This document shows, piece by piece, positions 18,179-52,015 of a stretch of DNA of 64,000 nucleotides (its first letter is position 1; every line of letters begins with the position of its first letter). Below the pieces are notes generated by a model. That model had not been told where the DNA came from. It saw only the letters and a list, made by a program, of their open reading frames with translations, and did not search any database. Source of the stretch: Mesaphorura yosii (taxonomy: Eukaryota > Arthropoda > Collembola > Poduromorpha > Tullbergiidae); NCBI GenBank assembly GCA_009869945.1, contig WIXG01000147.1, positions 62,001 through 126,000 on the forward strand, given 5' to 3'. The position numbers and the translations under genes were made by a program.

Positions 18179-19032
18179 CTACCTCTTTGACTTTGACTGG
18201 TTTTGAGGTTCGACATCTTCTTCGTCCGAATCAGACCCACTATTAGAATTAACTGCTGGCAGAGTGCTGCTGGCACTTGTGCTCGCTATTAAAGTGGGAT
18301 CAATGAAGCCCGTCCTCGCAATTGCTGTCGAGTCTTGTCTTTGCCAGCGGTATGATCGCTGGTGTTGTTGCTGCTGTAGGATGCTTGGCAGAGGTGAAGA
18401 TGAGGACACGGGAGCCGTTGCACCTCCGGCTCGATATCTGCGATGCTCATCCACCGACGACATTGTGTTTGTACTAGAACCCATCAGTACACTGCATTGG
18501 GAAAGGCTTAGAATTAGAAATCATCTGAGATTACAAAAGTTGGAGTTTGGGAAGCAATTTATTAAAATTTTGGACTTTAACTCTGAAACTTTAGAAGTTG
18601 ATTTACATTTCAAGCGAATGAATTTTGATTTACTTTCTGTTGGAAAACTGAATTTCAATCGGTGGAAGCGATTTGGTTGATTTTGCAGGCATGAATCCGG
18701 GCTCAAGGTATTTTGAGCCCATAAGATTCGTCAACGACTTGGACCCGGACGACGTGGATGGGTAGACGTCGATTGCTGTTGACGAACTGCGACCGGCGGC
18801 AGCCGTAAAGGTGTTAAGCGTTGGTGTCGGCGGCGTGATGCTGATCACTGCATGTTGGGTAGCAGCCGCAGGAGTAGTGCTGAGGGGCCGGATGGCTCGC
18901 GGGATCCGAGACGACGAGGTAGCACGTGGTTGAGGAGCGATTGCATTCTTGTTCGGAGGCGGTTTGCTATTGCCGCGCTGAAAACGGTACGGCGGCTGAC
19001 CACCATTCACATGTACAGCCACAGCCCCATTC
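18179..19032 (-). CDS. Two probable C-terminal exons (of tipE, or of another minus-strand gene)
   Basis: Exon 19032-18634 opens at an acceptor CACTTTAG and ends at AGAAA|GTAAAT; exon 18491-18179 opens at AATGCAG and runs to TAG. The phase 2 junction between them gives a continuous Ser/Thr/Pro/Ala-rich chain of about 237 residues ending in an acidic block (SGSDSDEEDVE) and basic tail (QNQSKSKR). Exon 19032-18634 has no usable ATG before residue 95, so it must be fed by an upstream exon in phase 2. The tipE donor at 23073/23072 supplies exactly that phase. The composition resembles the low-complexity cytoplasmic tail of the tipE main exon. Confidence 0.5.
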
Positions 19033-22000
19033 CTAAAGTGTTTATGGAGGACAGAAAACGGTAGAGGTAACGTTTTCAGAGGATGCAGGGGATTAGACAC
19101 TTTTTGACAATCCCCTAGCAATGTGCCAAAATTGTGGAAAAATTGAAGCGGAATGTTTGCATGGCAGAAAGTAATTGAGATCAATTTCTAAAAGAGTGAT
19201 CTCTCGAGCTCTAAAAGAGTGAGCTAGCATAAGATTCATCAACGACTGGCGACCATTCAAAATTCACAATACCAATACAGATAATTGGCAACCACAAAAA
19301 TGTAGTGAAGCAAATCTTTGACAAAACTCAAGACACCACAAACGCAATACGCAGACTAAAAAGGTCCCGATAATCAGACAAGCAAGCAATGCGTTTCTAT
19401 TCTAAACTAGATTAGTCAAGCCATGACACAATGCACAACGAATAACGAAGAGAAGCATTACTTCAAAACTGACCAAAATCAAAACTTTCAAAAGTAAAGT
19501 TTTCACCAATTCGAATTCTACTCTATCCAAAAAGGTCTACTTCAGATGCCAAATCTACGGTATATGATCTATTATGGGCCAAATAACAGCCTTCTTAATT
19601 TCTATGCTTTTGTTTCTGATGCAGACAAGACTGGCAGCAGGGCAAGTGGTGGTCAAAATCAGATCTACGGGAGCAGTCAAACTACGACGGGCCTTGCTAA
19701 CTAGCACTAGCACGTGGCGGTGAGAACATGACAGAAAAGACGAAATAGAGAGAAACTGAGTTATACCCTGGTTATAGAATTCCTGTGCCATTCTGCCAAA
19801 TTCAGCTCAGGGAAGCGGCCAATCCATCGCTTTTGTCATTGGAATTTAGGCTGACTTCGCACAGCCTGCACGCTGATTTTAATTCCCATTAATGGATATT
19901 TATGCCTTGTCGATTTGTGCGCCAAGATTTTAGAGTAACAGTATGAAAAGGAAAGGAGAAAGCAGTCGACACTAAAAGTCCGTCTCTTCGAAGCCCCCGA
20001 GCAGAGTTGGCTCACCCCTAGACATAACAAGAACCAAAAAGAACAACAAAGATCTTAATTGTGGGCTTGAATTCGCCCTGGACATGAATGGACGAAAATA
20101 TGAACTCAAACTTCGTGCCGAGTTTAAACTAGGACTCGGATTTCAACTTTAGCTTTGCTCTGAATACTAAAGCGCACTTTTACGTACTCTTTTCATCATC
20201 TCGTCTCATCAACTTGTCAAAAGAAAACTTTTCACTGCAGCTCACGAGCTCTTTAACTTTTACACGCTTTGCTCCTTTGCCCGAGCCTTTTTAAAGAAGA
20301 CAGCCAAGTATAGAAAGAACTTGGAATGAAAAAAGAAAAATATTTACTTTTCTCGGCTGCTCCGAGCTTCAAGACTCCATCAAAAAAGACAAGAAATGGC
20401 AAAAGTGCCATAAAACAGATTACACTATAATGCTATCCATTACAAATCCTTTTCAGTGGAGCAAAGCACACATTTCAGTTATAATGACGCAATTCAGCCA
20501 ATTGGATTGCTGCCGAGCGATGAAGAGTCTCGTCTAGTCTCCGAGTTCTGTAAGACTATTAATGTCTATGCAAAATTCGTTAATTCTTAATAACTTCAAC
20601 GCCAGACACGCTGCTGCACTGGCAGATTGCAGTTCAGAGCATAATTGAATTCTTTTGCATCGGAGCCCAAGACGCAGAATTCAGCTCAGTCAATTCGTCA
20701 TATCATAGAAGGTAGGACAGCGTACGTATTGTACAAGAAAGATCAAAAGTCAAGTCAGACACAGCGAAAGGCGCAGGTTAAATCCACCTTTTTCGTTTTG
20801 TAGGTCAATTTAATATTAAAGAATTCAGCAGCACATTTCGGAAAAAGTACCAAGAGAGCAGTTCATCCTTTCCTACATTGCACTGCAGCTCATCAGTTGG
20901 CTCCTAGCTTCGGCTCCGCTGTCTGCTCTGGGATGAACGAGAACGAGCTCACGTACACATTTCTCTCACGAAGGTGAAAGCACAAGTTGGAAGAAACTAT
21001 TCCGCCTCTGCTCTCGATGCAACGCGACGGAGTCTGAGCTGAGCCTCTTCTACAAATTAGAAGACAAATGGAACAACGCATGGATGGACGGCCAGACTCC
21101 TTGAGTGAGTCCGTCTAAACAAATCCACGATACGGACCTGCGGCATCTCGAACAGACGTACAGCAATGAGCATTTCTTTCTCTGGAACCGACTCTTGAAT
21201 CTTGCCAGCTTGTTCTGCAATCGAGTGGGATGGCGAGGAATGAAAGAATCCCATCAATCAGCTCTCATTATTGTTTTCATTGATAAGTGTATTGCTGCGT
21301 TTAAGGATATCCATCTAAATCTGTGCTCTGATCGTACAAGTCAACACGTCTAGTAGCTGCAGTGATATGATTATAGATATTTTTTTCCGTCTCCAGGTTT
21401 TTCTACAGATGTGGGATCCCTTACATACAAACTCAAAGTCGGATGCAGTGTATTGTGCATCTTAGTTAAAGCCTAGAAACTGGTATTACTACACGTCCGA
21501 AATTATGAAAGTCGCAGGTGTTTAAATGTTGGTCTCCAAATCCTGCAGACGAATATTCAGCAATTATGCGTATGCCGTCCAATGCCTGACAAAAGCCTCA
21601 GAAAAATGTAGTGTGGGCGAAACCGTGTAATTACAGCCACTTAAGCCTCGTGAAAAGGTCTAGAACCCACAACCCGAGTTGTTGCTACATGTCAGTTCTT
21701 CCAGCATATGTAGTATATATGACCCGCATCCTTAAAACTGTGCGTAACATTTTGACAAATGAATTGGCAATCAAAAGACCCAATGTATCGTATTGTCAGT
21801 GCTTGCAACAATAATCAATACCATCTGGTTGGACTCAAAGTCTGCACTAACATCCAGTTGTCCATGCAGGATTGCCGACAAACGAAATGATTATTGGACC
21901 CAGATCCATTAATTATTTTCCGTGTTGGTGTTATTGTGTAAACTATTGCAAGTCGGCAGTCGGCGCAACAGTCACTTAACTACATTAAATCAGCCAAACC

Positions 22001-25000
22001 AAATTAATAAACTCAGAAATGTCAGAAGTTTAATAAATCGCACTGAAGACCTTCCCCAAACCCCAAGCGTCATACACTTTGATTTTCGACACAGACGTAT
22101 CTTCACTAACTGTACTAAGTTATACATGCTCTTTTTCCGAACTTTACAATGGAGTAAAAACAGAGCAACACGGGCTATGCTTATGGACTGTACCAAAGCT
22201 CATTCATGTTTCATATTTCAAAAGATATCTTGATCTCGGAACTCTCAGAAGTCTATTTACCTTCAAAAGAACCAAAACATCGTCACTTGAAGTAAGATAA
22301 CCACATTACAGAAATCTGACCAGACGCAAACGGGCAGGCGTCAAAACGAAAAGGTAAAGCAGTCCTCTCAAAAATTCTTTTGAGTTGAAATTAAGTTTGC
22401 ATACACGATTCCAGGCCCAAAACAGAAGTCTCGAGAAGATTGCCGGTTTCCCAATCTCTTTATGCATCTTTTTGCATGAATAGCAAAAAACGACAGCTGC
22501 TTTATTTTCTCCGTCGCACGCACTGAACGAAAGCGACGAAACGGCATTTTTTGCGAATAACTTGTCAATCAACTGCTACGACATAATTGCTACATAACAA
22601 TTTCTTGTTATATCGCACAGCATAAATCACAATCACTCAAGTCATGTTCCATACAAAATAGAAGCGTCACGTGTAACACACGAAGTGCATCATAAAATGA
22701 CACTCCTCACAGCGTAGTTTGACATGTGGCTAATTCGATTGCGATTTCCATCACTCTTGACGGGTGAAACGGTTGGAAACTAAAGCTAACCGCATTTTAT
22801 GTAAATAGTCGAACCAATCAAACGAGTTGCCTTTAACGCATGACATGACAAAAGCGACAGCTTCAAATTGTGTCAATTTACACATTCACACTTTACTCGC
22901 GTGAATTTTTTTTGTCAGTCTAACGAGAGTTTTCAAGAGTTCAACAATTCTGCTTTTGAGGAAAAAAAGGCTGAATTCAGAATTAAAATGCCTGAAATCG
23001 TGTTAAATATTAATCAGAGCCTAAATCAACTCAATCGTAAACAACGGACAAAGTGCTCAAGCATGGGCGTACCCTTTATTTTTGGCAGCAGGGTTGGTTG
23101 GTCCATTCCGTTCGGGGGCTCTAGCAGTAGAAGTTGAACTAGTCGTAGTGGTGGCGTTATTTCTAGAACTTGCTGGCAGGAGACGTTGTTCATCACCATC
23201 GTTTAGGTTCGCAGGACTATTGTCAACAACAACACTCGTACTCGCCGGAGGTTTCTGTTTTCTAAGACTCGGTAGCAGGTCACTCATTTGAATTACGACT
23301 TGTCCTTGAGCAGCAGCTGCGGGTGGCTTCAGCGAAGACGACGAGGCGGCTCTCGCCGTCGTCGGTTTGGCCATCGCTGTCGAATCAGCAGTGGCCGTTG
23401 GTGCTGCAGGAAGACGTTGCGGTTGAGGTTGAGATGCGACGGCGTTAAGTCCGCGTTGTTGTGACGTGCTTCGTTGAATTATGTGCGCCTTCTCGTCGGT
23501 GGTCGACACGGACGCGTCCAGGTCGTCGGACGAGCCTTGTCCTTCTCCGTCTCCCGGCAGGAGTCTTGGTATGGATGCAATGTTGTTATTGGTACTTGAT
23601 GTTATGAGAATTGGGTCCGTGGTTAGCAAGTTAGTGGTAGAGTTATTAACGGCGGCGGCAGAAGCGGCGTTATTGGCAGTTTGACAGCTAGACGATGTAT
23701 TCGCATCAATTGCGTTCACGTCGGCGGTTGAGGCAGCGGCGGTAACAGAATGCGGCGTTCGTGGCGCGGTCGGGCTCGGAGCGTATATTTTAAAGTAGGC
23801 AAACACAATGTAAATAGTTGAGATTACGAAACAAGGAATCGGGATTGCCATTGAGAGAACCAGTTCGAAGAGAAGCCGGTTCATGTTAAATGTAGTCACT
23901 ACGAGTTTGGGGTCAACTTTGCTATAATAGCAGGAGAAGTTTCGCCCTACATGGGCGTACTTGGACAGGAATCGCGAGCAGTTGACCTTCGGTGGGTAAC
24001 CGCAGCCACGGACGTTGGGAAAGAGGTGGGCGCGGTGGAACCAGCCCCCTGACGAGCCTGCAACGGCACCACCGCCACTCGACTCACTTTCACTGTTCAG
24101 GTTGCTGGCGCTGGAGGAGCTGCTGCTGCTGCCAGGCCTCAGCACTCGAGAATTTGAGTAGTACGAAGATTGCAGTGAGGCTATGTGCGGAGAAGACAAA
24201 GACGAAGAAACTAAACTCGAGCTCAATGTTTTGTGCTTCTTCTTCTTGTGAATATTTCTATCGTCTGTTGTCAGCGTCGACCCTTCGCCTTTCGAACTCA
24301 GTGAACTCGAACTCGGCACCGTTCTCTGATAATTATTGTTATTAGCGTAGTAGCTGCTGCCATGCACAGAGTACACATTATTAACAGAGTTGCTAAACTG
24401 TGGCTGGTTGTTAGTCTGATAGAATGGAATCTGCATTTGTTGTTTGTAAGTCGATGAAAGTCTACTGTTGATATTGTTTAGCTTTGTGGAAGTGTTCCAT
24501 CTAACTCCAGACGTTTCTTCATCAATTGTGGATTCGCTGTGACTATTGCTCCTGGAAATCGCTCTCCGACTTCGTGGCCCACCTGCGTAGTGGTGGTGGC
24601 TGCGGGTGGTGGGCGAATTGTCCGTCACAGCGGTCGTGGTCGGTGATCCGCCAATGCGGTACTTGACAAGTATTTGCGTACAGTTAAATATTTCTTTCGT
24701 ACAACCTTCACGACATGACGTCCATGTGCAATTACTACTACCTATGAGATTTATAACTTCTTGTGTATAACAGAGAGTTGGTTCAGGATCAAACTCTTTA
24801 AAGATAGTACTGAAGGCCGGGTCAATCACAAAAGGCACGAGGAAGAGGAATGCGAAGAGACTGAAGACGGCGAGCAAAATAAAAAAGGCGGTTGTGTAGA
24901 ATAACGCCTTTTCTCTTATCGTTGGTTCAACGGGCGGCGCAGGGCCGGCTGGAGCCTTCTCTTCTTCACCTTCCACAACAACTTCACCATCAACAACAGC

Positions 25001-25843
25001 GCCTCCCGATCGCTGATTTGGTGCCAGTTGTCCGTCTGGTCCAAGTTGAAGCCCGTCGGGCCCGAGTAGTTCGTCGTCGCCAGGCCCAACGCTCGTATCC
25101 TCCGGTTCGGCTCTTGTCTTGATAATCTCACCGTGAGGAAAATTGGAATCACATTCGTCCAGCTCCAGTATCTCGACATCAACACCAGCAAACTCAAGTT
25201 CCAGCTCACGTCGCGACTCTTCATCGGAGGAAGATGCCAAGTCCAGCTCGCCATCTTCCACGTCCCGCACGCGGTCTCGTCCCAACGTCCCCTTCGCGAT
25301 GATGGGCAGCAGAGGCGGTGGCAGCGGCGGCGGCTGACTCGATCCCCGTTGCAGTCGGTTTGGTCCATGCTGCTGCTGCGGTGTTCGGCTGTGCAGGTCG
25401 ATGAGAGCTGGCGGTGACGAAGAAGAAGAGTCTTGATGGTGGTGGTGATGATGATGCGATCCCTGCTGCTTATGGTGGTGGTGGTGATGATGGTGTGATC
25501 CGCCACTGCCACCCCGTTCTGAATCAAACGAAGCAGACTTGTTGGAACTCAGCGAGAGCTGTTTCGCGATGGCATCTGCGATCTTCGCTTTGGCCCTGTT
25601 CTCTTCCTCCTCCGCGGCAGCGGTAGCGCTGCGCCGAGATGTTGCGCCAGTGGTGGAGGACCCTCCGCTCCCACTCGATCCCTTTCTCCGGTTGGTCTCA
25701 ATAAGCGTGCTGCTGTTTTTGCGCGTCAGCGAAGAGCATGTTGAAGTGGTTGTTATCGTAGTTGATGTCGAAGGCGTCACATTTGTCGGTCTGTGTTGCT
25801 GAGTTGATGATGCTCCTACTCTCTCTTCTTCCTCACCCGGCAT
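18179..25843 (-). CDS. tipE: tipE: auxiliary subunit of the Para sodium channel, with long cytoplasmic tails
   Basis: The main exon (25843-23057) encodes 928 residues from ATG. Membrane segment 1 lies near residues 313-338 (LFYTTAFFILLAVFSLFAFL) and segment 2 near 658-685 (LSMAIPIPCFVISTIYIVF). The loop between them holds the family cysteines, including CTWTSCREGCTKEIFNC and FPNVRGCGYPPKVNC, and sites for N-glycosylation. These blocks match Drosophila TipE closely, which is about 450 residues; here the N-terminus adds about 310 residues, with His runs near 114-140 and an acidic stretch, and the loop has a long Ser/Asn-rich insert. Either the frame stops at 23057, or it leaves at donor AAAGG|GTACGC (exon end 23073) and joins exons 19032-18634 and 18491-18179: strand and phases (2, then 2) fit, giving about 1,164 residues. 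The main exon is near certain; the two extra exons are inferred and could belong to another minus-strand gene. Confidence 0.85.
19033..23072 (-). other. Probable 4.0-kb tipE intron, no internal gene seen
   Basis: If the long tipE model is right this is its second-to-last intron. It contains only short unconserved ORFs. Near its 3' end a partial copy of the neighbouring exon and a short tandem repeat are visible at 19,187-19,254. If the short model is right, it is 3' flank of tipE. Confidence 0.4.
19187..19254. repeat. Short tandem repeat plus partial copy of the adjacent exon
   Basis: The unit TCTAAAAGAGTGA occurs twice about 23 bp apart (19,187 and 19,210). Directly after it, 19,228-19,254 matches 18,720-18,745 inside the coding exon, sharing CATAAGATTC then TCAACGACT with one substitution, and differing beyond that by a short indel. 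The exon copy is preceded by a perfect 8-bp hairpin (GGGCTCAA at 18,699-18,706 and TTGAGCCC at 18,713-18,720). Confidence 0.5.
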
Positions 25844-28800
25844 ATTATCGGGCCTGATCTCTCACCTGATACGCAACCCAGGGACACAACCCAAGTTATC
25901 AGGTCCCTTGAACATTCTTTAGCGCTGCTGACGCAGAATCATGAGCAACTTCGAGTGAAAATGACAAGATCAATTGACGTTGCTGGCAGCTTGACTTTCT
26001 CTTGCGCGTGATCCTGCTTGATTCTGACTCGAATATTTGCAGCAGAAGAATCTCATGTAATAATAATAATTGCATCCATGATTTGAAGGCTTGACAATTT
26101 ACTGGTTTAGCAAAGTTCATTGTTATTGTATACGTTACGAGTACGGAAATGCAAGAAGCAGCAATTGGCGAGTGGCGATTCGATTCTCGTACTCTCGAAA
26201 ACGCAGGAAATGGGGTCAGTTTCGTAATCAATCAGTTAGTCTCTTCTGGGCACAGTTTCTACCTTGGTCTTGGGGGAACAACCCAAAGCAGCATTCTTAA
26301 TCGCGTATACACTCGCTAATTACATTTTTCCGGCTTTTACTTTTGTCGTGCATGTGGCTTGAGACGAAGGTTTCTTGAAAACTTCTTGCATCTTCGGTCG
26401 CATTTGAAGCTTGTTCAATATGAATCACTATGCGGAGTACGAGTAAAATGCTTAGAGCTAAGAATGAGCAAAATCCGTGTACTTGCACTTGTCGCTGCTG
26501 ATATTCGTAGGTAATTAAACCCGAAACACACATAATGAGAACTGCTGAGACCATACGAACGTGGAGAAACTGAAAACACATAATTTCCTGCGAGTACGGA
26601 CACACGACACAATGGAACAGCGGCGGCAGCAGCTTGTCAAAAACGTGGAGACCATTATAAACCGTAATTACAGATCAACAGCACCTGGATTGCACTGATT
26701 GCACACGAGTACACGCTGTATTGTGTAATGAGACGGCGACGAGACGGCCACGGACATGAAACAAGTAATAACTACAATTATGAATTCTAACTCAAAGCTC
26801 TGCAGGGTGTAGCATTTAGCATTGCAATTGTAGCACCAAAGGAGAATAAGTTGAAGACGATCTGTAACACAATTTAAGTGATTGCACTTTCACCGCAACA
26901 ACACCAGGCCAGCTGGAGTACGCTCTATGCTCGCTTAATCACATAACCTCTCAACAAACGAGTGCGCGGTAATGGCAATAATAATAAACCAAACACGAGA
27001 TGAAATGACGAGGCAGGAGGCAGAAGATCAAGTTAAAAACACAGAAATCTGATCTTTTCTTCGAGCTGCCGAATTGCTGCACAGCGCGCACAGACACAGA
27101 TTGTGCGGCTGGTTAGTAACTTGATCTTGACGTGTATTGTGATGTATGAGGCTCTTTCGAGAATACACAGCACTTGGCCACTGCACACTGCTGATGATCA
27201 GGAAGAGATAATTTATATTGAATGTATCGACATCGAGAACGAGCACGGCAGAGAATCTTCCAACGTGTAGCAAAATAATATTAATTGCTATGCAGCGCTG
27301 CGTAGCACATATTAATTAGTAGAGAAAGCAAGGCAACTGGCTGGCTGCAGAACATTCACTATTTGCAATTTGCGAGACTTGGACCTCTTGAATAACAACG
27401 TGCAACTTTTCCAAAAACAGAAACCACGTTTTCGAAAGAAGCTGATTACGAATTATGAAGTACTAGTTAGAAAAGTAACAAGCAAAATATTATTGGATTG
27501 CAAGCACTTAGCAATAATTTTGTTTCTATCCTTTGTTTAGAACCACGAGTTTGAGTTCATAGTCACGTCACTGAGCCTGATGATTGTCAATCGTATATCG
27601 AGTCAAGCCAAGTGGGGTTTCAACAATGGGTTGCTTCAATTCAATCGTTCTCCACTTTCACCATGTTGGGGTTCACAGTACACTAATTGTCTTTTATGGA
27701 GGGGCGAATTGTTGCCTGATTCCCACGGAGCCCGAAGCACTGCCCTAACCCATTGTTACGTGTTACGTGGTCGTGGCTGCTGTGTGGTGTGCTGCTGGTG
27801 GGACGACGTGTGCAGTAATTTCAAATTTTGAATAAAAATGGGAATGGGTATGAATGAGAGCAAGTTCGAGCAGCAGCACCAACACGAGAGGAGCAGCAGT
27901 AGAACGTGGAGCAACTAGTACTTGTCTTCTTCGCCATTTTGGGGAATATTGCAGCAGTGAGTGTGCGGTTGCTGGATAAAAAGGAATAGAGCAGGACTGC
28001 AGTAGTGTAATAATAAGATAGCATGGCTAAGGCAAAGAGTTCGATTTAAGACTACGGGAACAAGTATAATAATAATAGTACACATACCAGCTCTATACTT
28101 GGCGCTTTCTCCACGCTGGCTCGCTGGCTGCGTGCAGCAGTCAAAACGGTCTTGTAACCTTGTACATATGAAAGCGACCAGCGGAGCAGAGCAGAGTAAA
28201 AGCAAAATTATAACGAATACTCCAAGGTGCTGGTTTGCTTTCGTTCGTAACACAACGGGCCAAATGCGAAAGTCTACTCTACTTTCAGGTTCCAGCCGCC
28301 TGCTTTGCCATAGCATGGAATCCAGAGCCAAAGCCAACAGAACGAAGTCAGTCAGGAAAAACCTGCACTGCATGGACGGACGACTACTTGGTATGGCTCG
28401 CATGTCGCCTGCCTTTCCCATTGCCTTTGCATGGCCCAGTCGCAGACCGACTTAGTTTCTATCTTTGTGTCTGCGTCTACTTTTACCGTCGCAGTCAAGC
28501 CAAGTCAAGTCAGGCCAACGTCAGACCGACCTAAGTTTGTCCATTTCCAGTTCAAATCCCATGCCATTCCGTGCAATTATTAGCTGCTTGGAAGTGGGAA
28601 GGTACTCGTGGAATTATAAATTCAAGAAATTGTGGCTTTAGTCTAGACAAATGCAATGAGATGGAATTCCTAAAATAGCGTCTTTTCTTTTCTTTTTTTC
28701 TTAACGTGAGTCGAGTAATTCATTGATCCAAAGCGGATGAAATCTGAAACAGAGTACCTTAATAATATGAGCTCATGAAGAAAGACAGTGCGACACAGAC

Positions 28801-37253: not shown

Positions 37254-37538
37254 GACGACGACGTGGCTTCAACTGACAAGAAAGACAACTTGCCAATCAT
37301 GCACAGCACAACCAAAATAACAAAAATATGAATTAGGACTATTTTATAGAGAAACACAGACCTTCACGTTTACAACTCATAAATTTTCATTTGATCTTTA
37401 GAAATACATGTGATCTTCATCAAAGTCCAATCACCTTTCACTTTCACCGTCACGCTTATATTCCCCTCTAATCCGTCAATTTGATTTCGTACAGACACTA
37501 AATTCTAGTAGAGAGTTTCAAGTCGGTTTGCCGTAATA

Positions 37539-39081
37539 ATGGTTGGAGCAGCGGGAATAGTCGCTCGTGCAGGTTAGCTAACAAACCATTGATTCTTTTC
37601 CACTGGAATCTCGAAGTAACATTAATTGTACACTTTCAGTAAACAACAGTCGCGAACGCCGAGAGAGCAGAGCCTCACGTCGTGGGAGCGATGATAACAA
37701 TAACAACTCAGGACAAGATGGCGGACCTCGACTTGGTTCACGCGCAACAATCGCAGAAATTCTCGCTTCTCGACATCTGCTTGCAGTCGGTTCGGGTGGA
37801 GTTGGTGGCAGCACTACGTCGCAGAAAAGTGCTGCCTCCCAACTCAACCCCATGCAGCGTGAACCTCCGGAACCTCCGCCCGAGAAAATGACCATGGCCG
37901 AGCAAGTCAAGTTCTACGTATCACTCACACTGGGCATCATTGCCACACTCTGTGTCTTCGCTCTGCTTTTTCTCATTCCGCTTGTGGTCGAGCCCTCTAT
38001 CTCGACCCTTTTTGCTGATTTCGATTCCGAGGCGGCGACATGCGTGACCACACGAGCTGAAGAAGTGACCGGGTTGACAAAGTGTGGAATTTACAGTTCG
38101 TGCAAGGAAGGATGCACAAACACGCCTCACAAATGCATTCAGATTAATGTCAACTACAGAAAAGCGAACAAACCTGGCTTCAATCCGATCAAGAATTTCT
38201 CGATGGTGGCTCCTTACGAAATCAACGTAGGTCATTCTCTAAATACGCATTTTCCATTCTCATGAACTTTGTTGATGTGGTCTCCCCAGGACGAATCTCA
38301 CTGGGACGCTGTTTACACGCAGTTGTTTATAAATGCAAAGGGTTGTGGATATCCACCAAAAGTGGTGTGCGATGACTTTAAATCCATTTACGGAAAGGTA
38401 TGAAAATAAATCGAATCTGCCATGTCTGAATCGTGCTGACTGTACAAATCACCATGACCAGGTCGGCGTGGCATTTCCCTGCTTCTACAGTCGCACAAAC
38501 CCTCGACTTGTGATCACCGACTACAACTGGGAAGAAACTGCTTTTCCTCTGATATTTTCGCTTGGGATTCCAACTGGATTGTTTACGATATCGATTGGAG
38601 TACTAAGCGTGTGGTATTGCCCTATGTGTGAGGAACGCGGCAAGAATAAGCGCCCTTGTCGGGCTCGATACATGATCCCAAGACCTAATGCGGAAGACAT
38701 ACTTCTACGAGATAGGAAGCTGAAGAAACTGGACAAGGATGGTAGTCAGAGTGCACGCAACCGAAGTCAGCATCTTGTCCCACCACAACCACAGCCAGTC
38801 ATTCAACAACAGCCAAGGCGCAAGCATTCTCTGTATAGACCAAATTCCCCGTCGCTGGCAACGATTTCTTCTGGAGACACCACCATATCGAGCATGAGTG
38901 TCAACTCGTGCGATAGCGGGTAAGTCCAGCAAGGTAAACCTTAAATCGATTTTTTCCTGCTCTAGCATAGCAAACTGTCTTTTGAAACAGGTGGAACTCT
39001 CCACCCACACCACCACCAAGGTTGGGATCGAGGTTTGACACATCAAAATCCAGTCTCGGGACTCGAACAAGAAAGCTATAA
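37539..39081 (+). CDS. Teh1: Teh1: TipE-homologous sodium-channel auxiliary subunit
   Basis: Exons 37539-37572, 37640-38226, 38290-38397, 38462-38919 and 38991-39081 join in phases 1, 0, 0 and 2 through introns of 63-71 bp, giving about 425 residues. Membrane segment 1 is near residues 100-128 (LGIIATLCVFALLFLIPLVV) and segment 2 near 278-300. The loop carries CGIYSSCKEGC and NAKGCGYPPKVVC and ends FPCFYSRTNPRLVI. Directly after segment 2, SIGVLSVWYCPMCEE matches the distinctive end of Drosophila Teh1, so orthology is well supported. Drosophila Teh1 is shorter (about 280 residues); here the N-terminus is extended with Ser/Arg/Asn-rich sequence and the C-terminus with a Gln/Pro-rich tail. Its product is expected to raise Para current and alter channel gating in neurons. 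The first exon codes only 11 residues; it was chosen because its phase 1 junction gives VNNSRERR in the open frame. AATAAA lies at 39,433-39,438. Confidence 0.88.
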
Positions 39082-39392
39082 ACGTCGCAAAAACAAATCG
39101 AAAAACTCCTTAAAACCAATACCTGCAACCAGGTTCTGCCTGTTTGTGATACCATTTAAAACTTCGTTAAAAGCAATCCGTAATACACTTGCGCTTCAAG
39201 TCCTTCCGACACTTAACGCAAAGGTGCTACTACAATTTCAATGGATCTAACAACCAGATATAATAATTATTCACTTTAAAATGCAATGCAAAGTATGACA
39301 GAATGATTCTCACATTTTCAACTATAACGTGTTTACTTGTGTAGTACTAGGGCAAGAGCGCAACTATAGTGCTTATGTGCCACAATGTTACC

Positions 39393-40485
39393 TCACTCAT
39401 GAATTTGTAATTGTAGCATTAAGCTATTAAGCAATAAACCAAGTCTTAGTTGGTAATAGATCGCGATTTGCGAAGCGGAAGCAGAAATGGAGAATAAAGA
39501 ATTGTCCTTGTTTACCTTTTGTTCTTCCTGCTTCTTGTAAGCGAACATCATCAATTTCTTTCGTTCTTCTTCCGTCAAAGCTGGTTCACGGCCTGGAGGT
39601 CCTTGTCCACGCCTGCTGATCTTAACAATCACTTTGGTCTTTTCATTCCTTCCGATGAAATCTTGCAGCTGTTTTCCGGGAAGGATTTGCTTTCCACAAA
39701 ACCACAGTTCCCCCATACTTTCGTCAAGAATCTGTGGATGTCACGAGTTAGTTAAGTAGTGCATGTCATTAAAATGTGTACAACTAACTCACGTCGAGAC
39801 TGGCTTGAGTACCCGCTAGGTAATCTTCTTTATTTTCAAACTCCATCCGGATCGGGTCATGCGGTGGCAAATTCATCGGGTAAACAATTGTGCAAGCCCC
39901 ACGAAGGATGTCCAATTGCTCCTTTATTGTTACTTCATTTAAAGGAGTGTTTGAGTCGACCAGTTTCTGCAAAGGTTAAGTTTGCTACAAATTTCAACAT
40001 TGCGTCCTGCAAATTGTGGACCACTGATTACTTTCGAAATAGCTGCCTTCGCTTCGCCAATTGTGCGCGTCAGGACTGACTGCATTTTTTCTATGGGTTG
40101 TTTGCCATTACGGCGACCAATTGGGTCGCGATTCAATGTGAATCCACCACTTGGAATACATGTCTCACCCCACTCATCAACACGTTTTAGTTCCTCAATT
40201 TGTTCATCAGTTAAACCCAAAATGTCTTCCGGTAGATACGTACCATGCTTGGCCAGTTCTTCCATTTCTCCGGGCAACAATAAGAGAAAAAGTTGAAGTG
40301 CTCATGAAGGAAATTCATCGTCACGTCTCATAAATTGCACACGTACCATCACAAATGCGGTGTATTTTTAATCTCCCATTGTAAATGCGGGTTATGCTTG
40401 CAATCAGTGCATCAGTAGGTACTGTAACAGCCGTTTCGACGAGGAACTGACTTTCATCTCCACGTTTGACATGAAGCTTAACCAT
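39393..40485 (-). CDS. CFAP298: CFAP298 (C21orf59/kurly) orthologue, C-terminus diverged
   Basis: CFAP298 acts in cytoplasmic assembly of axonemal dynein arms and in cilium polarity. Exons 40485-40347, 40267-40032, 39966-39793 and 39731-39516 join in phases 1, 0 and 0 and encode 255 residues that follow the family throughout: KLHVKRGDESQFL at the start, GLTDEQIEELKRVDEWGE, RGACTIVYPMNLPPHDPIRM, MEFENKEDYLAGTQASLD, GRNEKTKVIVKISRRGQGPP. The human protein is about 290 residues and ends in a conserved tryptophan-rich tail after the KKQEEQK-like helix. Here no such exon is found before the Teh1 3' end. A donor AAG|GTAAAC exists at 39516, yet reading through gives 40 unrelated residues to a stop at 39393. 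The 3' end therefore overlaps or abuts the convergent Teh1 gene. An upstream in-frame ATG also exists, but the conserved start is MVKLHVKRG. Confidence 0.9.
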
Positions 40486-41163
40486 TTTGACCTGCGCTTG
40501 AGACACAACTCGATGCGATCTGCATTCATAAGGTACAAAGTTCATAAAGTGTATCAAAAGTCTCAAGTCAAGTTCCCAACTGTCAGATGAAAACATATCG
40601 CACTTACCAACAATTTTACCAAAACCACAGAATTCTGCTCAAAAGGCGATGCAGTTCAGATAATGCAACAGCGCTCCACGTTCAGGGTGTACAGAATTAT
40701 AATCTCGATTTTTATTGACCAAACTTTGCGAATTCTCAACTAACGTCAAAACAGACGCTAAAATTCTACGACTTCATTCCTGCAATGTGATCCAGTCTCA
40801 GCGCGCTTTCGCACCACATGTATGAAGTTCAATCCTTGCATTTATGTAGAGCTTCAGCAAGGCGATTATTGCACGTCGAAGTTTGACGGTTTGTTAACAA
40901 AGTTAACGTAGTACTAGGAATTATTGTTTGTCAGTACGGCGGTAATTAATTTTTGATCGTGGAGCAATTGGAGGACACATTCACAATTGGCAGCGAAATT
41001 CATCAACTCCAGTCACAGGCCACATTGCGTTTATTTACGGCAGCAAAATTGGTCCCTGGTTTGTTCGTGTGAAGATAAGTAAGTACAATTATCTATGATA
41101 GTCTTGCTAGTCAAGAATTCGTTTAATTACCAGTGATGTCAAGAATTATATTATTTCTAGGAA
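40486..41163. promoter_or_regulatory. Divergent promoter region between CFAP298 and prefoldin 3
   Basis: The 678 bp between two head-to-head start codons must hold both promoters. A 5' untranslated exon of prefoldin 3 probably lies here: AGATAAGTAAGT near 41,070 resembles a donor, and TTTCTAG at 41,154-41,160 resembles an acceptor just before GAAATGG. No TATA box stands out. Confidence 0.4.
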
Positions 41164-42027
41164 ATGGCATCTATTGAACTACTGAACGGAGCTTCCAACC
41201 CCGATACAGACAAGACTGGAGGCGCTACGGGAGGGGAAGAACCTTCTGTAATACCAGCGGGCCTTGCAGTTCAAGAATCGGAAACACTGGAGCAAAAATT
41301 AGAGAAGATACCCAGAATTGAGTTTGTGGAAGATGTGGACTCATTCATGTTACTTCCTGAAAACGCGCAAAATGCTCAAGAAACGCTTAAAAGAATCGAG
41401 GACATGCACCACCGAATGAAAGTACTGGAAGCAAGCAATGTCAGCACGAAGCGAAGGTACGTTTGTCCTTCATATTACGCTGACAGATAAATACAAATTA
41501 CAATGATAAATAATCGGTGCGGTGTGGTCATTCCATCTCCAGGTTACAAAACCAATTGTCAGAATTTGAGAAGGCGTTGGAGATCATCGAAGAACTGAAA
41601 GCCAGGAACGCAGCGAATGAGTCGTTATCAACCCATTTTCGATTAGCTGATCATGTGTACTTAAAAGCAAAGATCAAGCCGAACCAAAAGATTGGACTGT
41701 GGCTGGGTGTAAGTTCTTCATTTCTAAATTCGAGAAAAAGGAATTCGATTATGGATTAGGAGATGGTGATGGCAGTAGGCAAAGGAGGAATTACTGTTAA
41801 TTTTTTTGTAGGCCAATGTAATGTTGGAATATGACATCGATGAAGGAGAGGCCTTGCTGTTGGAGAAGAAAGGAAAAGCAAGCGAAAGTCTTAGTATGAC
41901 AAATACTCTTATCGATACAATCCGGGAACAACTGACCACCATCGAAGTAAATATGGCCAGAATATACAATTGGGATGTCAAGCGAAGGCAGCTGGAAAAA
42001 GAGCAGATGCTGGCCAAGAAGGAATAA
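41164..42027 (+). CDS. PFDN3: Prefoldin subunit 3 (VBP1)
   Basis: Prefoldin 3 is an alpha-type subunit of the hexameric prefoldin chaperone that hands nascent actin and tubulin to the CCT chaperonin. Exons 41164-41456, 41543-41708 and 41812-42027 join in phases 2 and 0 through introns of 86 and 103 bp and give 224 residues (human about 197). The family core is intact: KIPRIEFVEDVDSFM near residue 45, paired coiled coils (QNQLSEFEKALEIIEELKAR and the C-terminal helix), the central LWLGANVMLEYDIDEGEALL hairpin strand, and TTIEVNMARIYNWDVKRR. The N-terminal 40 residues are a variable, low-complexity extension. The start is the first ATG after a probable 5' UTR intron. AATAAA lies 208 bp after the stop. 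The gene is divergent from CFAP298 and followed in tandem by PRMT7. Confidence 0.95.
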
Positions 42028-42234
42028 TGAGCTATTTACTAAGGACTAGGATTAACCTGCGTACTGATGTATTTAACATTTGTAATTTCTAACATTGCTA
42101 TTTATGTGTCTGTTGGGTAAACTGTCATTGCATTGATTATGATTATAATCACTTTAGCCGCTTTAAAAGCGAAGTAACATTGCTACTGCAGACAAAGTAC
42201 TGTACTTGAAAGCCTTTATATTCTAATGGGTTTT

Positions 42235-42240
42235 AATAAA
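42235..42240 (+). terminator. Poly(A) signal of prefoldin 3
   Basis: AATAAA in an A/T-rich context 208 bp after the prefoldin 3 stop and upstream of PRMT7. Confidence 0.5.
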
Positions 42241-42780
42241 CTTCAATTGAATAACCACGCTCCAACATCCTGTTATGTTTTCTGAAGGAATTCTTCTTGG
42301 TTGGAAGTTACAGTCACCAGAAATCGGACATACAAACCATGAGAATCCTTGCCTCGAATTCAGAGGATGGACGTGGGAACCTCATCCAGTAAGCACGTTG
42401 TATCATTCGACTGACTCAACTTATCACCTGTCGAAGCTATTGATTATGGGTTTAGGATATGAGACTGGAAGAGAGCATTCTGATTGCAGCCATTACTTTG
42501 GAATAAGAGTCGCCCAATTTCAACACTGGTAGGTAACACATCCATTAAAGGTAGAATGTCGGCTTTCGCAAACACATAATTAGTTCCTAATTGAAAGCTT
42601 TAATTTGTTCATTTTGTCCAGGCGTGCATGCAGGTAGTTTGGAGAACTTCGACACTACAGGCGCTCCGCACAAAGCTTATTGTCACCTGCATTCCTTCAA
42701 TAGCATCAATAAGCTGTCAGGCAAGACCTCACAAAGTTTGCTCGGCACGCCTGTTTTCAAAATCAGGACATCTTCCGGTC
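42241..42780 (+). other. PRMT7 promoter and 5' region with a possible N-terminal extension
   Basis: The stretch separates the prefoldin 3 poly(A) site from the chosen PRMT7 start. From an ATG at 42,628 the PRMT7 frame is already open, adding 51 residues before the start used here (MQVVWRTSTLQALRTKLIVT at its beginning) that contain Arg and Lys but no acidic residue. The ATG at 42,628 has T at -3, whereas the one at 42,781 has G at both -3 and +4. An 86-codon ORF at 42,275-42,532 in another frame has no splice or similarity support. Confidence 0.4.
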
Positions 42781-45339
42781 ATGGAGTTGATAACTGATAG
42801 CAGCCCCCAACAGTTGAACTTCATTCAAAGGATAAACAAGGACGGTACATCTGAATGGGTAGTTGCATCTGAAGATTATGATTATAATCAAGAAATTGCG
42901 AGAGCGGCATACGGTGATATGCTGCATGATCACAACAGAGTAAGTGATTGATGCCGATACGCGTCTTTAATTTTAAAGAAATAACGCATATATTTATTCC
43001 TGCCATATGTTCTGACAGAACATTCGATATTATGATGCGATCAAGTTAGCCGTTCAACATCGACATGCTGCTAACGAGAAAGCGACTGTACTCGATATTG
43101 GAACTGGGACAGGGCTTTTGTCCATGATGGCACTAGCTGCTGGTGCTGACGCTGTTTTTGCATGCGAAGTAAGACTTGTCCCAAGAGCGATAACTCATCT
43201 TAGAGGCATTAGTGATATTAGTTCATGTTGTAAATGCGCATGTAATTTTGGCAGGCATTCAAACCCATGGCAAATTGTGCAGACAAGGTTCTGAAACGGA
43301 ATAATTATCGGGACAGAGTTAGACTAATCCCAAAGAGATCTACGGATTTACACATTGGACCTGAAGAAGACTTACCGTGCAAAGCAAATATTCTCCTTGC
43401 TGAAGTTTTCGACACAGGTTTGCAAATTGCAATTTCGAACCATTAAAATTAGCCGAAGTGAGTTATGCAATCATCTCCTTTTCTACTCCAGAGTTAATTG
43501 GGGAAGGTGCAATTGAAGTTTTTAATCATGCGAAACGGGAGTTAACGACAGTATGTTGATTTGATTACCATTGTTAGCGAGTTTATAAAAATCGTATGAT
43601 TCGTGTTACATTTATAATTCTTTTCCAGCCGGATTGTATTGTCATTCCATCACGAGCTAATGTTTATGCTCAAGTGGTATCTTGGACGTTGCTAAGCAAA
43701 TGGAATAGACTCCAAGACTTCCATTCTAACGGCATCACTATAAAGTATCCGGATAATCAAAATTCACGACGTTGTGCTGGCGTTCCCAGTGTTCATGACC
43801 TACAACTTACTCAGGCGAAGAGTTTCACTCCAATATCTGAAGAAGTTCTTATCTTTGAGTAAGTGCAAATAAGCAAGTTCAATCAGCAAAAGGGGTCCTG
43901 TAATTTGGCGTATTTTCTTAGGTTCGATTGGAACAAAATTCAGCCACTATCTCGAAACAATTCAATTCGATTCCAAGCACTAAACGAGACTGAATCTTAC
44001 GGTGTTTTCTTGTGGTGGGATCTAATCATGTACGAAGGTGCAGACTGGACATCGGAAGAGAATATAATAGCTTGTCGACCAAACTGGAGTGGAAAGTACC
44101 ATTGGAGGGATCACTGGATGCAGGCGGCTTATTACCTGCCTGCTGAATTAATCATAGAAAAGAGTGCATCATACACTTTGGAGTGCGCACACGACGAATT
44201 TTCCTTCTGGTTCAAAATTAACAGTGCCTCAAGTCCAAAACCGATTGAAGCACAGCATCCTGTGTGCACGTGCGGTCTCCACTTATGCTTTAGCCGAAGC
44301 AGATTTGGACTGTTGAATGACGAGAAACGAAGAAGCAAATATTTCGCTTCCCTGCGACAAATAATCAGGTCTAATGAAACTGTGGTATTGGTGATCAGCG
44401 ATGGATCGTTCTGCGGTTTAATGGCAGCAAGGCTTAATGCGAAGAAAGTCTTCATATTAGAAAGCGACGCTTCAACAGCCAAGCTGACAAAGTTGTTCCT
44501 TGAGTTAAATCAACTTCAGGCTAAAGTGCTCGAAAAGCCTCACGCCGAACTGACATCGGATGACTTCGACAACATGAAGGTAGAGAATTTCTTCATAAAT
44601 ACGTTTCAGTGTCAGTGCAAATTTTTGAAACCTCTTGTCCTTCATTCGTCTAAGGTCGATGTGGTTATTGGCGAGCCATATTTCCAGACATCTGCACAAC
44701 CTTGGAATCATCTGACTCACTGGTGCGATGCCCTTGCATCTCTGTCTTGGAGTTTCTCCTCTGACGTCCTCCTTGAACCAAAGACGGCAAGCATAAAATG
44801 CGTGATAATGAATTATGAGCATCTTTGGAAAATAAGTTCCCCGGTGGGGACTGTTTGTGGTTTCGATCTGGCAGATTTTGATGATCTTATCGCGGTAATT
44901 TGACGAAAATCGTATGCAATAAAGTATTAGTCATACGTGTAGATATTTGCCCATTTGTTTTCAGAAATCCTCTGAATTTGCTGATACGGCAATCGACTCA
45001 CAGCCGTTGTGGGAGTATCCAGGAACCGCATGCAGTGAGGAAATTGTTTTGGAATCAGTTGACTTCCGAGAATTGGCACATGGCACCAAGAAAGTAGTGG
45101 CACCATCATTATGTCCTGTACCACTAAACTCTCAAAATTTTCCCAACGGACTAGCCCTTTGGATAGAGTACAACATTGGAAGCGAGGTTGTATCAACCGG
45201 ATTTGATCCTGCTTCACGACCTGCTAGCCTGATGGGAAAGCAGCTGGACTGGGATCCAAATTGGAAACAAGGGGTGTACTTTTTCAACAGGAAAGAGATT
45301 AAGGACTTGGCGGAGTGGTGGCAGGCTGCCAAAATGTAA
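42781..45339 (+). CDS. PRMT7: Protein arginine methyltransferase 7
   Basis: PRMT7 is the type III enzyme that makes monomethyl-arginine in histones and RNA-binding proteins using S-adenosylmethionine. Seven exons (42781-42939, 43019-43168, 43255-43417, 43492-43550, 43629-43858, 43922-44894, 44965-45339) join in phases 0, 0, 1, 0, 2 and 0, giving 702 residues (human 692). The first catalytic module has DYNQEIARAAYGDMLHD near residue 35, the SAM-binding VLDIGTGTGLLSMM near 75, the double-E loop ILLAEVFDTELIGEGA, and later HWRDHWMQAAYYLP. The second module is degenerate, as in the family: its SAM loop reads VISDGSFCGLMAARL. VDVVIGEPYFQTS and the C-terminal WIEYNIGSEVVSTG are also conserved. Introns are 63-86 bp. 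The active-site residues visible are all present, so the enzyme should be functional. The start at 42,781 has the better initiation context; an upstream in-frame ATG at 42,628 would add 51 residues. Confidence 0.95.
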
Positions 45340-48300: not shown

Positions 48301-48531
48301 TGAAAATGGCTTATGTATTTAAAGACGTCATAGTCGTCTAAAGGTGCATTCCAATGCAGATTGCACCAGTTCATACAACACGAAATGTGAAGTGGAAGTG
48401 GACGCTTTTCTTCTTTCCGTGCTCGGTACAAGTAACGGAAGAACATGAGTGAGCCACAAAATCTGTCAACGGAAAATGTACAAAAGAATGTGTTCTGAAG
48501 TTGTGCTTCGCATTAAACTACGACCTCGAAG
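45340..48531. other. 3.2 kb intergenic stretch, no gene seen
   Basis: It holds the PRMT7 3' UTR, with an ATTAAA at 45,497-45,502 and an AATAAA at 45,566-45,571, and the promoter region of the next TipE-family gene. ORFs such as 46,332-46,661 lack conserved content. Confidence 0.4.
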
Positions 48532-51500
48532 ATGGATGTCAAGCGAAAGGCCAACAATACAAAACTCAACACACGCGTACAGGCCGTCGACAATAATCCT
48601 CCGCCCATCGGATCCAAAATCTACGCAAAGAACAGCAACAGTTTTAGCAGTTCGAACGGGGCTGTCGCAAATGGCAACGCTGTTCGAAACGGCAAGCCTC
48701 TCGTCCATCAAAACAGTTTCATAAATGGCGGCCCAGTGCCCCCGGTGCTTACTGTGGTAGTTGATCCAGACAAGTTAGAGGCGGCCAAGAAGCGCCGGGA
48801 GGAAGAAAAGGAGAAGGAGCAGCAAGCGCAAGTTAAGAAGCCTAAACCAAGTTGGAAACAGCGATTAAAATGGCTGGTCACCATGTTTCTGTCCCTGACT
48901 GCCGTCTTGTCGGGGTTTTCTTTACTATTTATCATCCCACTTGCGGTTGACCCGATCTTGCACGGATTCGAAGCTCAATTCTCGCCCGAACCCGTACTAT
49001 GCAGGTAATTAAGCTATTTCTTAATATGCGGAAAATTTTAAACTTAATACCAGAAGTTATGATTTGAAACACGTACGAGGCCATATTTCAAAACAACCAT
49101 AATATTATTTTGGATAAACTCAAATAAGATAAGTGTGACAAAGTTGGATCGTACATTGAGGTTGTGTTGGTGTTCAGGCTTAACCGGTTAACTAAATTTT
49201 GTTGTAACCGCGAATGTAACATTGCGTTTTATCGTTTGTTCCACCAGGACCACTTCATCCCGCTTCGCCTACGGAACGGTTCAGTGTGACACTCCGAGCT
49301 GTCGCGAGGGCTGCACGGCTGACGTGTACAATTGTACCTTTATCTACGTGACGTATTCGAAGGATCAACCTTGGAGTCAAAGCCAAAGCAGTTTCAGCAA
49401 TTCGCCTGCTGGCAGGGGTGCTGTCGTTGTTCCTGCTCATGCCAACGTTCCTTTCAGAAATAGTTCAGACATCAGCACATCAGGCTCCAATTACACCTCG
49501 TACCTTTTCAATAATAATGAGATTGACTCGTCGGACTCGAATTCTGATTTCAACGAAGACAACTTGACATTCTCCAGTGAGTGGTTCGATTCATTTTTAA
49601 TTAAGTAAAAGCTTTCATTGTTTTCTGTTTATTTTTTGTGCCTAACAGATGCAACTCTGTTCGTGACTCCGACTGGTTGCGGATACCCACCAGAAATCAA
49701 CTGCAGTGTCTTTGATGAACTGTACATGCAACCTGGGAGCGTGTACCCTTGTCATTATAGCCGTGCGGACAATTCCCTCGTTGTTCCTTACTACAATTGG
49801 AACGAAGAATTTCTCTGGTTAAGTTTTATACTCGGATTTCCATTGAGCTCATTGATCACGGCGTCCATTCTGCTTTTCGTGGTTTACAAATGGAAAGTGG
49901 ATTCCTTGCCGTGTGAGGAAGGAGAATTTAGCGATGTTACGGGCGGAACGGCGCAGAAAACATCGGCGAATGGCGGACCACCGTTTAAAGTGTAAGTCTT
50001 AATTCACTTTGGGAGTAATAATTAGGCTTAAGCGTGTAGTTTGGCGACTGTGACGTGCGTCGCGTGCTCACGAAACTGCCATTTCTTCTTCTGACATGCA
50101 CGTGAAAAGAGTGCTGGTGTGATCGTCGTGTATGCAATTTAGCCTGGTTGAAATGTGGCCCATGCTGCGTTATGGGTACTTGCGTTCTAACCTAATGGTA
50201 GTTTTTATATTTTCTGGAACAGAAAGGATCATTTTCATTAAGGGGTGGGTTTGGGCCACACTTTTATATTTTTGTTATTGGTAGGCCTTAGTGTCTAGAA
50301 TAAAGCCCACTCCAGCCTAGGGTCAAATTCAGCATTCAGCGAAAGGAAATTCAGAAGAAAATGATGGCAGAGCTGATACGGATTGGAACGGAAATTGAGG
50401 AGCAAACTCACAGGCGACGCAATTGAATTTCCCTTCAACGAAAAAGGCGATAAGAATTTCTTTACCGGCGAGCAGGTAGAAAAGATAAGAAAAGGACCAA
50501 ATAAGATAAGTTCCCGGACGGTTCAATCTTAGTGATAGCTCATTTTAAAGCTAAGCTAATAGCATGCCGATTTTAATTTTGGCCTCAACTCAGTCCTGTG
50601 ATACTACTCAGCGATATTTGCTCGAGTTGGGGAAAATAAGCAAAAAAAGATCTTGAAGGACCATTATTTTCAAATCCCTCAAGTGCATTGATCCTGATGA
50701 ACAAGTAGCACTCCTTCACAGAAGAAAATCTCACTTTACCCCAGCCTCAAACTCCATATGTAAGAGTTATGGCTGGCCAAAGGCTGCATCCCAATTTCCT
50801 ACCTTCTGGGCCTGGGCGTGTTTATTAACCAAACCTTGTGAGTGAGTAGCCCTTGGGCAGGGATGAAAATAACAACATACCCCAACTCGAAATTCGCTTG
50901 CAAGTTCTGCCAAAAATTGGCGAAGTTTCCGACTTTGAACTTTGACCTCGGATATCTCCGGTCTGGGATGGAATTTCAGGTCCCTTTCTTTTGGGTTGTG
51001 TTTCATCATATTAGGACTACATTACGAGATACCACAGGTTCCTGAAATATGGCATAGGAAAAAGTTTAAAATTGGGGGCCAAACTTTGGAGTGACCTTTT
51101 CCCTAGGCACAGTGCTGAATTTGACCCCAGGCTGGACTGGGCTTTATTCTAGACAATAAGGCCTACCAATAACAAAAATAAAAAAAAGTTTGACCCAAAC
51201 CTACCCCTTAATGTATATGATCCTTTAAAGTGAAAGTGGTAGAAGCAGTTCACGTTCGTGTTGGCCTCGTTTAAACGGTATTAACTTAATACTGCAATGC
51301 CACGATACTTTATAAAAGTGAAACATATTTCATTATTCATGCAATGATTGCGAATATTTAGGCGATCTTGACAATCCGTACGTAATAAGGTCGTGGGCTT
51401 TCTCTTTGCGTTAACTTTATTCAAGCTATGCATTCGTTCTAGATTTTTGTAATGTTTGTCGTAGTGTTTTGTAGCTTGATTGATATGAAAAACTTGCAGA

Positions 51501-52015
51501 CTGAGTAATTTTTATTTGACGAAACCATGTGAAGCGTGGCAAAGTTTATGTCTGATATGTCTCACTTGTTAGTGTGCTTTCCATTGATTAGGTGCTTTCT
51601 CATTTCTTTCAGGTCGACGAAGGAGAAATGGGCTCAACACAACAATCACAACCATCATCATAACCCACACAATTCGATTAAGTCGAAGGCAGAGCACGTC
51701 AATGAGACGACTACGACTGCATCCGATACCGAGACACACATTCCCTCCGAGGAAAAGCCCTCAACCTCATCTTCAGTGAAAGCCAACGGTCACGGTCCTC
51801 CAAAGGCAGCTGCTGTACCGGTGCAGGAGCCTGAACCTGCTCCTGAGTCTGCTCCAAGACCTGAACCTACGCCAAAGCCGGCACTTGAACCTCCGCCAGC
51901 CGTACCAGGACCTTCAACATCCCATCCTCATCCCCACACTCCCAATGTCATCCCAATCGCAGTGATAGCACAAAGTTCGTCCTTTACATCGTCAACTGAC
52001 AGTGCAATCACATAG
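48532..52015 (+). CDS. TipE-homologous sodium-channel auxiliary subunit (Teh2/Teh3-like)
   Basis: Exons 48532-49004, 49248-49576, 49649-49991 and 51613-52015 join in phases 2, 1 and 2 and give about 515 residues. The N-terminus of about 118 residues is polar, with a Glu/Lys-rich helix (KKRREEEKEKEQQAQ). Membrane segment 1 is near 126-148 (FLSLTAVLSGFSLLFIIPLA). The loop has CDTPSCREGCTADVYNC, several NxS/T sites and PTGCGYPPEINC, ending YPCHYSRADNSLVV. Membrane segment 2 is near 333-357 (LSFILGFPLSSLITASILLF). The C-terminal exon codes a His-rich then Pro/Glu-rich tail. The cysteine pattern places it firmly in the TipE family; which Teh number it matches is not decided, hence no symbol. The first intron is 243 bp, the second 72 bp and the third 1,621 bp; the last contains a transposon-like element. 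AATAAA at 52,192-52,197 is a good 3' end. Confidence 0.88.
50223..51226. mobile_element. MITE-like non-autonomous DNA element with about 112-bp terminal inverted repeats
   Basis: The arm 50,223-50,334 and the reverse complement of 51,113-51,226 match along their length with roughly nine in ten bases identical: both read AAAGGATCAT, then CATTAAGGGGT, GGTTTGGG, TTTTTGTTATTGGTAGGCCT, TGTCTAGAATAAAGCCCA, and GGTCAAATTCAGCA. The 780-bp interior has no long ORF, so the element would need a transposase supplied elsewhere. It sits wholly in the third intron of the TipE-family gene. I could not fix a target-site duplication. Confidence 0.75.

Follow-up and report, generated by a model that had tools for sequence, protein, structure and literature searches.

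We analyzed a 64,000-nucleotide stretch of DNA (C147:62001-126000; the window) from a genome of 93.0 Mb in 1,127 contigs. The window contains four TipE-family sodium channel subunit genes, and we found that three of them are nested, as predicted from splice sites and reading frames, in the last intron of CFAP298. This enclosure was missed in the initial annotation of the window. The genome looks non-insect, judging from its Ubx motifs, its receptor counts, and its lack of a Teh3 retrogene. The nesting is probably older than the insects, unless it arose twice. We put at roughly 0.7 the probability that this is an arthropod TipE locus in nested form from a lineage outside the insects, with one pre-insect nesting and later escapes.

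Genes, strands, exons, and nesting were read from sequence alone. The host gene is laid out in the window as follows.

39516-40485, minus strand: CFAP298 upstream exons, from the ATG through the penultimate exon (the penultimate exon matches PF11069 with E=2.9e-27; upstream junctions placed by eye)
16354-39515, minus strand: CFAP298 last intron, 23,162 bp (donor AAG/GTAAAC, acceptor TTTAG)
16353-16234, minus strand: CFAP298 last exon, 39 codons plus stop (acceptor ctttag/AAATTT; PF11069 profile positions 67-97)

Searching the whole genome with PF11069, we found two places, C147:101504-101710 (profile positions 2-72) and C147:78261-78353 (positions 67-97), both on the minus strand. They lie about 23 kb apart and are in phase, and splicing the exons together lifted the PF11069 score from 95.3 to 133.8 bits and extended the match to positions 2-97 of 97. 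A second copy of CFAP298 was rejected, as the genome holds only these two places. We also rejected a last exon nearer to the upstream exons: a scan of the window with a C-terminal pattern gave four matches, and none fits except the match at 16.3 kb. We take CFAP298 to be CG18675 of the fly and C21orf59 of humans. Part of this equation comes from passages of PMC3240667, which also give the fly CG18675 terminal peptide as 37 amino acids. Since the last exon here encodes 39 residues, we took the intron before it to be the same one.

The TipE-family genes were modeled as follows.

25843-23073, 19032-18634, and 18491-18179, minus strand: TipE orthologue, three exons, 1,160 amino acids (PF16972 E=1.2e-80, GT-AG introns, open frames)
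35696-36081, 36158-36201, and 36268-37253, plus strand: EGF-type Teh3/4-like gene, three exons, 471 amino acids, Cys-rich loop (PF16972 36.3 bits when joined)
37539-37572, 37640-38226, 38290-38397, and 38462 to about 38923 (provisional 3' end), plus strand: third TipE-family gene (the 37.5-kb gene), at least four exons (PF16972 143.0 bits, joined core)
48532-49004, 49248-49576, 49649-49991, and 51613-52015, plus strand: fourth TipE-family gene (the 48.5-kb gene), four exons, 515 amino acids, outside CFAP298 (PF16972 116.5 bits, joined core)
C479:16412-17056: fifth TipE-family gene (the C479 gene), a single open frame of 353 amino acids (PF16972)

TipE, the EGF-type gene, and the 37.5-kb gene all lie within the CFAP298 last intron. 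The 48.5-kb gene lies about 8 kb before the CFAP298 5' end, past prefoldin and PRMT-like genes. The four models in the window join by GT-AG introns with open frames. We scored joined cores and separate exons against PF16972, whose cut-off is 26 bits. The eight exon pieces gave E values from 1.2e-80 to 0.0016, with three of the eight under 26 bits; among these, the EGF-type exons scored 21.2 and 19.6 bits singly. As joined cores, all four window genes passed the cut-off (TipE with 265.6 bits and the others as listed), as did the C479 gene. All TipE matches fell within its first exon, and its two C-terminal exons were placed by frame and splice sites only. EGF_CA gave only 8.1 bits on the joined EGF-type model. 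In an alignment of family members judged by eye, two putative membrane helices appear to flank a Cys-rich loop with invariant cysteines.

These models agree with the initial annotation in having four TipE-family genes between the same outer coordinates (18179 and 52015), and in pairing a minus-strand tipE (18179-25843) with a Cys-rich Teh gene (35696-37253). We computed core identities after removing the long variable loop of TipE. Identity to TipE was 37% for the 37.5-kb gene, 35% for the 48.5-kb gene, and 28% for the EGF-type gene; the 37.5-kb and 48.5-kb genes share 35% with each other and 25% and 23%, respectively, with the EGF-type gene. With identities of 23 to 37% among the four, recent tandem duplication was rejected.

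A genome-wide PF16972 search (threshold E<=1, best candidates only scored) returned 12 matches, 10 on C147 and 2 on C479. The genome has four TipE-family genes on C147 and a fifth on C479. The core of the C479 gene is 20 to 33% identical to the other members, with TipE the nearest (33%). It adjoins open reading frames that by eye resemble TRMT5 and FAD synthase. No second EGF-type gene was found genome-wide at E<=10, where the five matches were the gene's own exons and TipE; a single-exon Teh3 retrogene was likewise not found in this search. TipE and the EGF-type class are the only firm assignments, and we leave the other names open.

We compared this arrangement with published TipE loci, citing passages of the papers concerned. 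In D. melanogaster, four family members are on 3L, with the fifth, Teh1, on 3R, and Daphnia gave rise to the proposal of a pancrustacean set of four genes (PMC3240667); the initial annotation had this background right. Its suggestion that the window fits such a set stands in part: TipE, one EGF-type Teh3/4-like gene, and two others are clustered, but a fifth gene lies on C479. Among the insects examined, the TipE genes sit in the CG18675 last intron, from which those of the beetle and silk moth have escaped, and Teh4 is missing from mosquitoes and the silk moth (PMC3240667). In the insect block Teh2-Teh3-TipE, the first two genes run opposite to TipE (PMC3240667). The cluster has also been confirmed in a damselfly (PMC5381652).

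The window resembles the insect nested cluster in its gene family, host gene, and last intron, followed by 39 amino acids here and 37 in the fly. In both, the nested non-TipE genes lie opposite TipE, and the EGF-type gene is nearest TipE. Here TipE and CFAP298 are both on the minus strand. Order and strands match Teh2-Teh3-TipE if the 37.5-kb gene is Teh2. The two arrangements also differ. Insects have Teh3 and Teh4, whereas here there is one EGF-type gene; the insect Teh3 is a single-exon retrogene, whereas the sole EGF-type gene found here has three exons. One non-EGF gene lies beyond the host 5' end here, and the terminal exons of TipE and the host, which overlap in insects, are 1.8 kb apart. 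Daphnia pulex has four genes and an empty CG18675 last intron (PMC3240667). It resembles this genome in having a single Teh3/4-like gene and no Teh3 retrogene but differs in having nothing nested and four members rather than five. The body louse, like the genome here, has a further member close to the nested cluster. In the louse, however, this is Teh1, about 15 kb from TipE, whereas the outside member here is on the host 5' side, away from TipE. In the literature on TipE, seen as titles and abstract openings and for some papers as passages, no other nested TipE locus outside insects was reported, which does not prove that none exists. Nothing further on the subject came from passages of PMC6259924, PMC11288129, and PMC5034548.

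Several features of the genome bear on whether it belongs to an insect. The Ubx exon (in L014) ends KELNEQEKQARAKEVVQSLHGGHDQNGQN, with neither QAQA nor poly-alanine. Insect Ubx commonly has both, and two springtails have QAQA without poly-alanine (PMC3910676, in part). The missing QAQA thus makes a springtail less likely too. Gustatory receptors (7tm_7) gave 61 genome matches at E<=0.001, on many contigs and with many open frames of more than 350 amino acids. Odorant receptors (7tm_6) gave 0 genome matches at the same threshold, a zero that is weak alone, as no control genome matched either. For the 7tm_6 search, which had no positive control, the 7tm_7 matches stand in as a partial control.

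Other markers were surveyed as well. Three globin matches were found in the genome, and both genes inspected are single-domain, unlike the two-domain globins of branchiopods, the group considered first. As a springtail marker, DIOX_N gave 12 genome matches, and the three proteins inspected looked by eye unlike isopenicillin synthase. No match to COX1 was found in a genome search, and no 18S was found in the genome with a short probe. Against structure chains, arginine kinase gave 43 rows; in the best two, 4rf6 and 4wo8, the match to a long chain falls into two stretches. Next to these, 4bg4 scored 618 bits, 5zhq 613, and 6ky2 547, which gives no lineage placement; we take 4bg4 and 5zhq to be shrimp and crab chains and 6ky2 to be from Daphnia magna. 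Six of eight Hox-like matches, with Ubx- and abd-A-like ones among them, spread across about 280 kb of C22; C621 carries a divergent Antp-like homeobox, and C209 a Hox3-like one (all named by eye).

Li et al. (2011) considered it more likely that the nesting dates to the insect ancestor, while allowing for an escape in Daphnia, the sole crustacean among their species (PMC3240667, in part). If the genome here is non-insect, as it appears to be, the nesting in it runs against that preferred date. Under the reading that we favor, a single nesting event would have occurred before insects arose; Daphnia, the beetle, and the silk moth would have escaped later, and the Teh3 retrogene would have been gained in the insect line only. 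More specifically, and at slightly less than even odds, the CFAP298 last intron may have housed sodium channel auxiliary genes since before the insects, perhaps since early Mandibulata, with Daphnia as a later escape. If TipE genes had instead entered the same CFAP298 intron twice, in insects and in the lineage here, the patchiness of the nested state outside insects (Daphnia is un-nested) would be explained. This would require the same host, the same intron, and TipE with an opposite-strand EGF-type neighbor all to recur, and we consider such convergence very improbable. It is even harder to credit that the species is simply an insect, so that nothing here is older than already known. The locus layout is insect-like, and 93 Mb is feasible for an insect genome, but the Ubx motifs, the 0 odorant- versus 61 gustatory-receptor matches, and the failure to find a Teh3 retrogene argue otherwise.

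Some observations weigh against a single pre-insect nesting of a simple ancestral set. With Daphnia pulex un-nested, a pre-insect origin needs a loss there, unless insects are more closely related to the lineage here than to Daphnia. The zero count for 7tm_6 has the weakness given above. The 23-kb CFAP298 splice is predicted from sequence. One non-EGF member, the 48.5-kb gene, is outside the host, and the terminal exons that overlap in insects are apart here (TipE ends at 18179, and the host exon starts at 16353). Finally, with a fifth gene on C479, the set is not simply four.

If the intron has housed these genes since before the insects, perhaps since early Mandibulata, they would have stayed together for well over 450 million years. 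From the arrangement, we suggest that nesting helps to hold them together, because a break within the host intron would destroy CFAP298 too. A pre-insect origin would make the nesting event older than inferred by Li et al. (2011), who placed it after the insect-crustacean split, with Daphnia as an escape, and would allow testing whether the genes stay clustered through nesting or through shared regulation.

The initial annotation named the 37.5-kb gene Teh1 and argued from it that Teh1 was linked to the cluster before its dispersal. The same argument had already been made from the body louse, aphid, and wasp, in which Teh1 is near the cluster, so the central inference of the annotation was already published; the placement next to the cluster seen in the louse is proposed to be the ancestral state of Teh1 (PMC3240667, in part). 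The name did not hold up well for this gene and is unproven. Passages of PMC3744522 show that in cockroach Teh1, residues 1-269 are in one exon, with one intron near the C terminus, and that the membrane helices are at 40-67 and 225-243. Four N-glycosylation sites are common to PaTEH1 (98, 135, 161, and 205) and DmTEH1 (101, 129, 142, and 191), and translating primer DPS1 gave us VPLYVDP as a conserved TEH1 motif (PMC3744522). From these data, we infer that insect TEH1 has a glycosylation site near the first loop cysteines.

In the 37.5-kb gene, introns interrupt the loop, the motif is IPLVVEP (four of seven residues of VPLYVDP), and the core holds one N-x-S/T site (+67), with none near the first loop cysteines. 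In the 48.5-kb gene, the motif is IPLAVDP (five of seven), and there are six glycosylation sites and three introns, again with no site near those cysteines. The C479 gene has CPLLIDP (four of seven) and, counted from the DP that ends the first helix, sites at +27 (SNCTW), +70, +95, and +139, plus +43 and +158. It fits two of the three insect TEH1 features better than the 37.5-kb gene does. By position, the 37.5-kb gene would be Teh2, as it sits in the Teh2 place of the insect block.

Two assignments of Teh1 can be weighed. In one, the 37.5-kb gene is Teh1, within both the cluster and the CFAP298 intron, which leaves the 48.5-kb gene as a Teh2 displaced outside. The 37.5-kb gene has the second-highest PF16972 score of the five (143 bits, joined core), and Teh1 is near the cluster in the louse, aphid, and wasp. 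However, it occupies the insect Teh2 position, has at least four exons where residues 1-269 of cockroach Teh1 are in one, and has a single core site, none of it near the first loop cysteines, where PaTEH1 and DmTEH1 share four. We regard this assignment as possible but doubtful. The other, which we entertain only tentatively, takes the C479 gene as the true Teh1, moved away from the cluster as has happened in many insects, and leaves TipE, Teh3/4, Teh2, and a further old paralogue in the window. Its one open frame of 353 amino acids recalls the one-exon core of cockroach Teh1, and its four sites compare with PaTEH1 sites near +27-31, +64-68, +90-94, and +134-138, if VPLYVDP ends at residues 67-71, as we place it; the spacing of 25 and 44 resembles the 26 and 44 of PaTEH1. 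Against it, the motif match equals that of the 37.5-kb gene and is below that of the 48.5-kb gene, there are two extra sites, the DmTEH1 spacing differs, and TipE also carries the first site (+29). The C479 gene is also nearest TipE, whose core is likewise in one exon, and could be a TipE retrocopy. Gene-order arguments about Teh1 require tree-based names first.

By family membership, each protein would have two membrane helices and a disulfide-rich outer loop, and each would join the Para sodium channel, raise its current, and tune its inactivation. TipE and TEH proteins enlarge the Para current, and TEH1 shifts activation and inactivation (PMC3715519, in part); in the honeybee, the EGF-type TEH3 and TEH4 slow inactivation (PMC4894402, in part). 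The same division of channel effects among subunits may apply here. A putative Slo-beta-like fold is likely for the five proteins. In vertebrate BK beta subunits such as KCNMB4, a Cys-bridged loop likewise lies between two membrane helices (PMC3240667, in part), and any kinship suggested here is nonsignificant: a five-protein profile gave beta-4 (KCNMB4) at E=0.12 and beta-2 at E=0.19, and nine eL40/ubiquitin-L40 rows scored better. Four single-sequence searches had no KCNMB among their matches. We rejected BK beta kinship on these weak profile rows and the missing single-sequence support. In a PDB search with the 928-residue TipE first-exon frame, the best 60 of 73 matches held no TipE or BK beta chain and looked like low-complexity noise.

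Other genes and open frames lie nearby. Within the CFAP298 intron, an open frame at 27918-28451 (minus strand) weakly matches Vps55 (24.0 bits versus a cut-off of 24.6), possibly by chance. Directly upstream of CFAP298 is a prefoldin subunit gene (41161-42027, plus strand; PF02996; by eye, prefoldin 3), followed by an arginine methyltransferase-like gene (42604-45339, plus strand; by eye, PRMT7-like) that scored 25.0 bits for PRMT_C against a cut-off of 27 and 24 bits for PrmA against 22. Two long proline-rich open frames, at window positions 8210-10795 and at C147:42001-44358 (L026:1-2358), are about 26 kb apart; both carry NEKESIL-AL-TLSQAK-EV and are probable tandem paralogues, with no family assigned. 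A Cys-rich open frame at 59180-59698 (minus strand) contains CYCTGSLCN and matched in Pfam only DUF4690, below threshold; we liken it to Ly6/quiver-type channel modulators.

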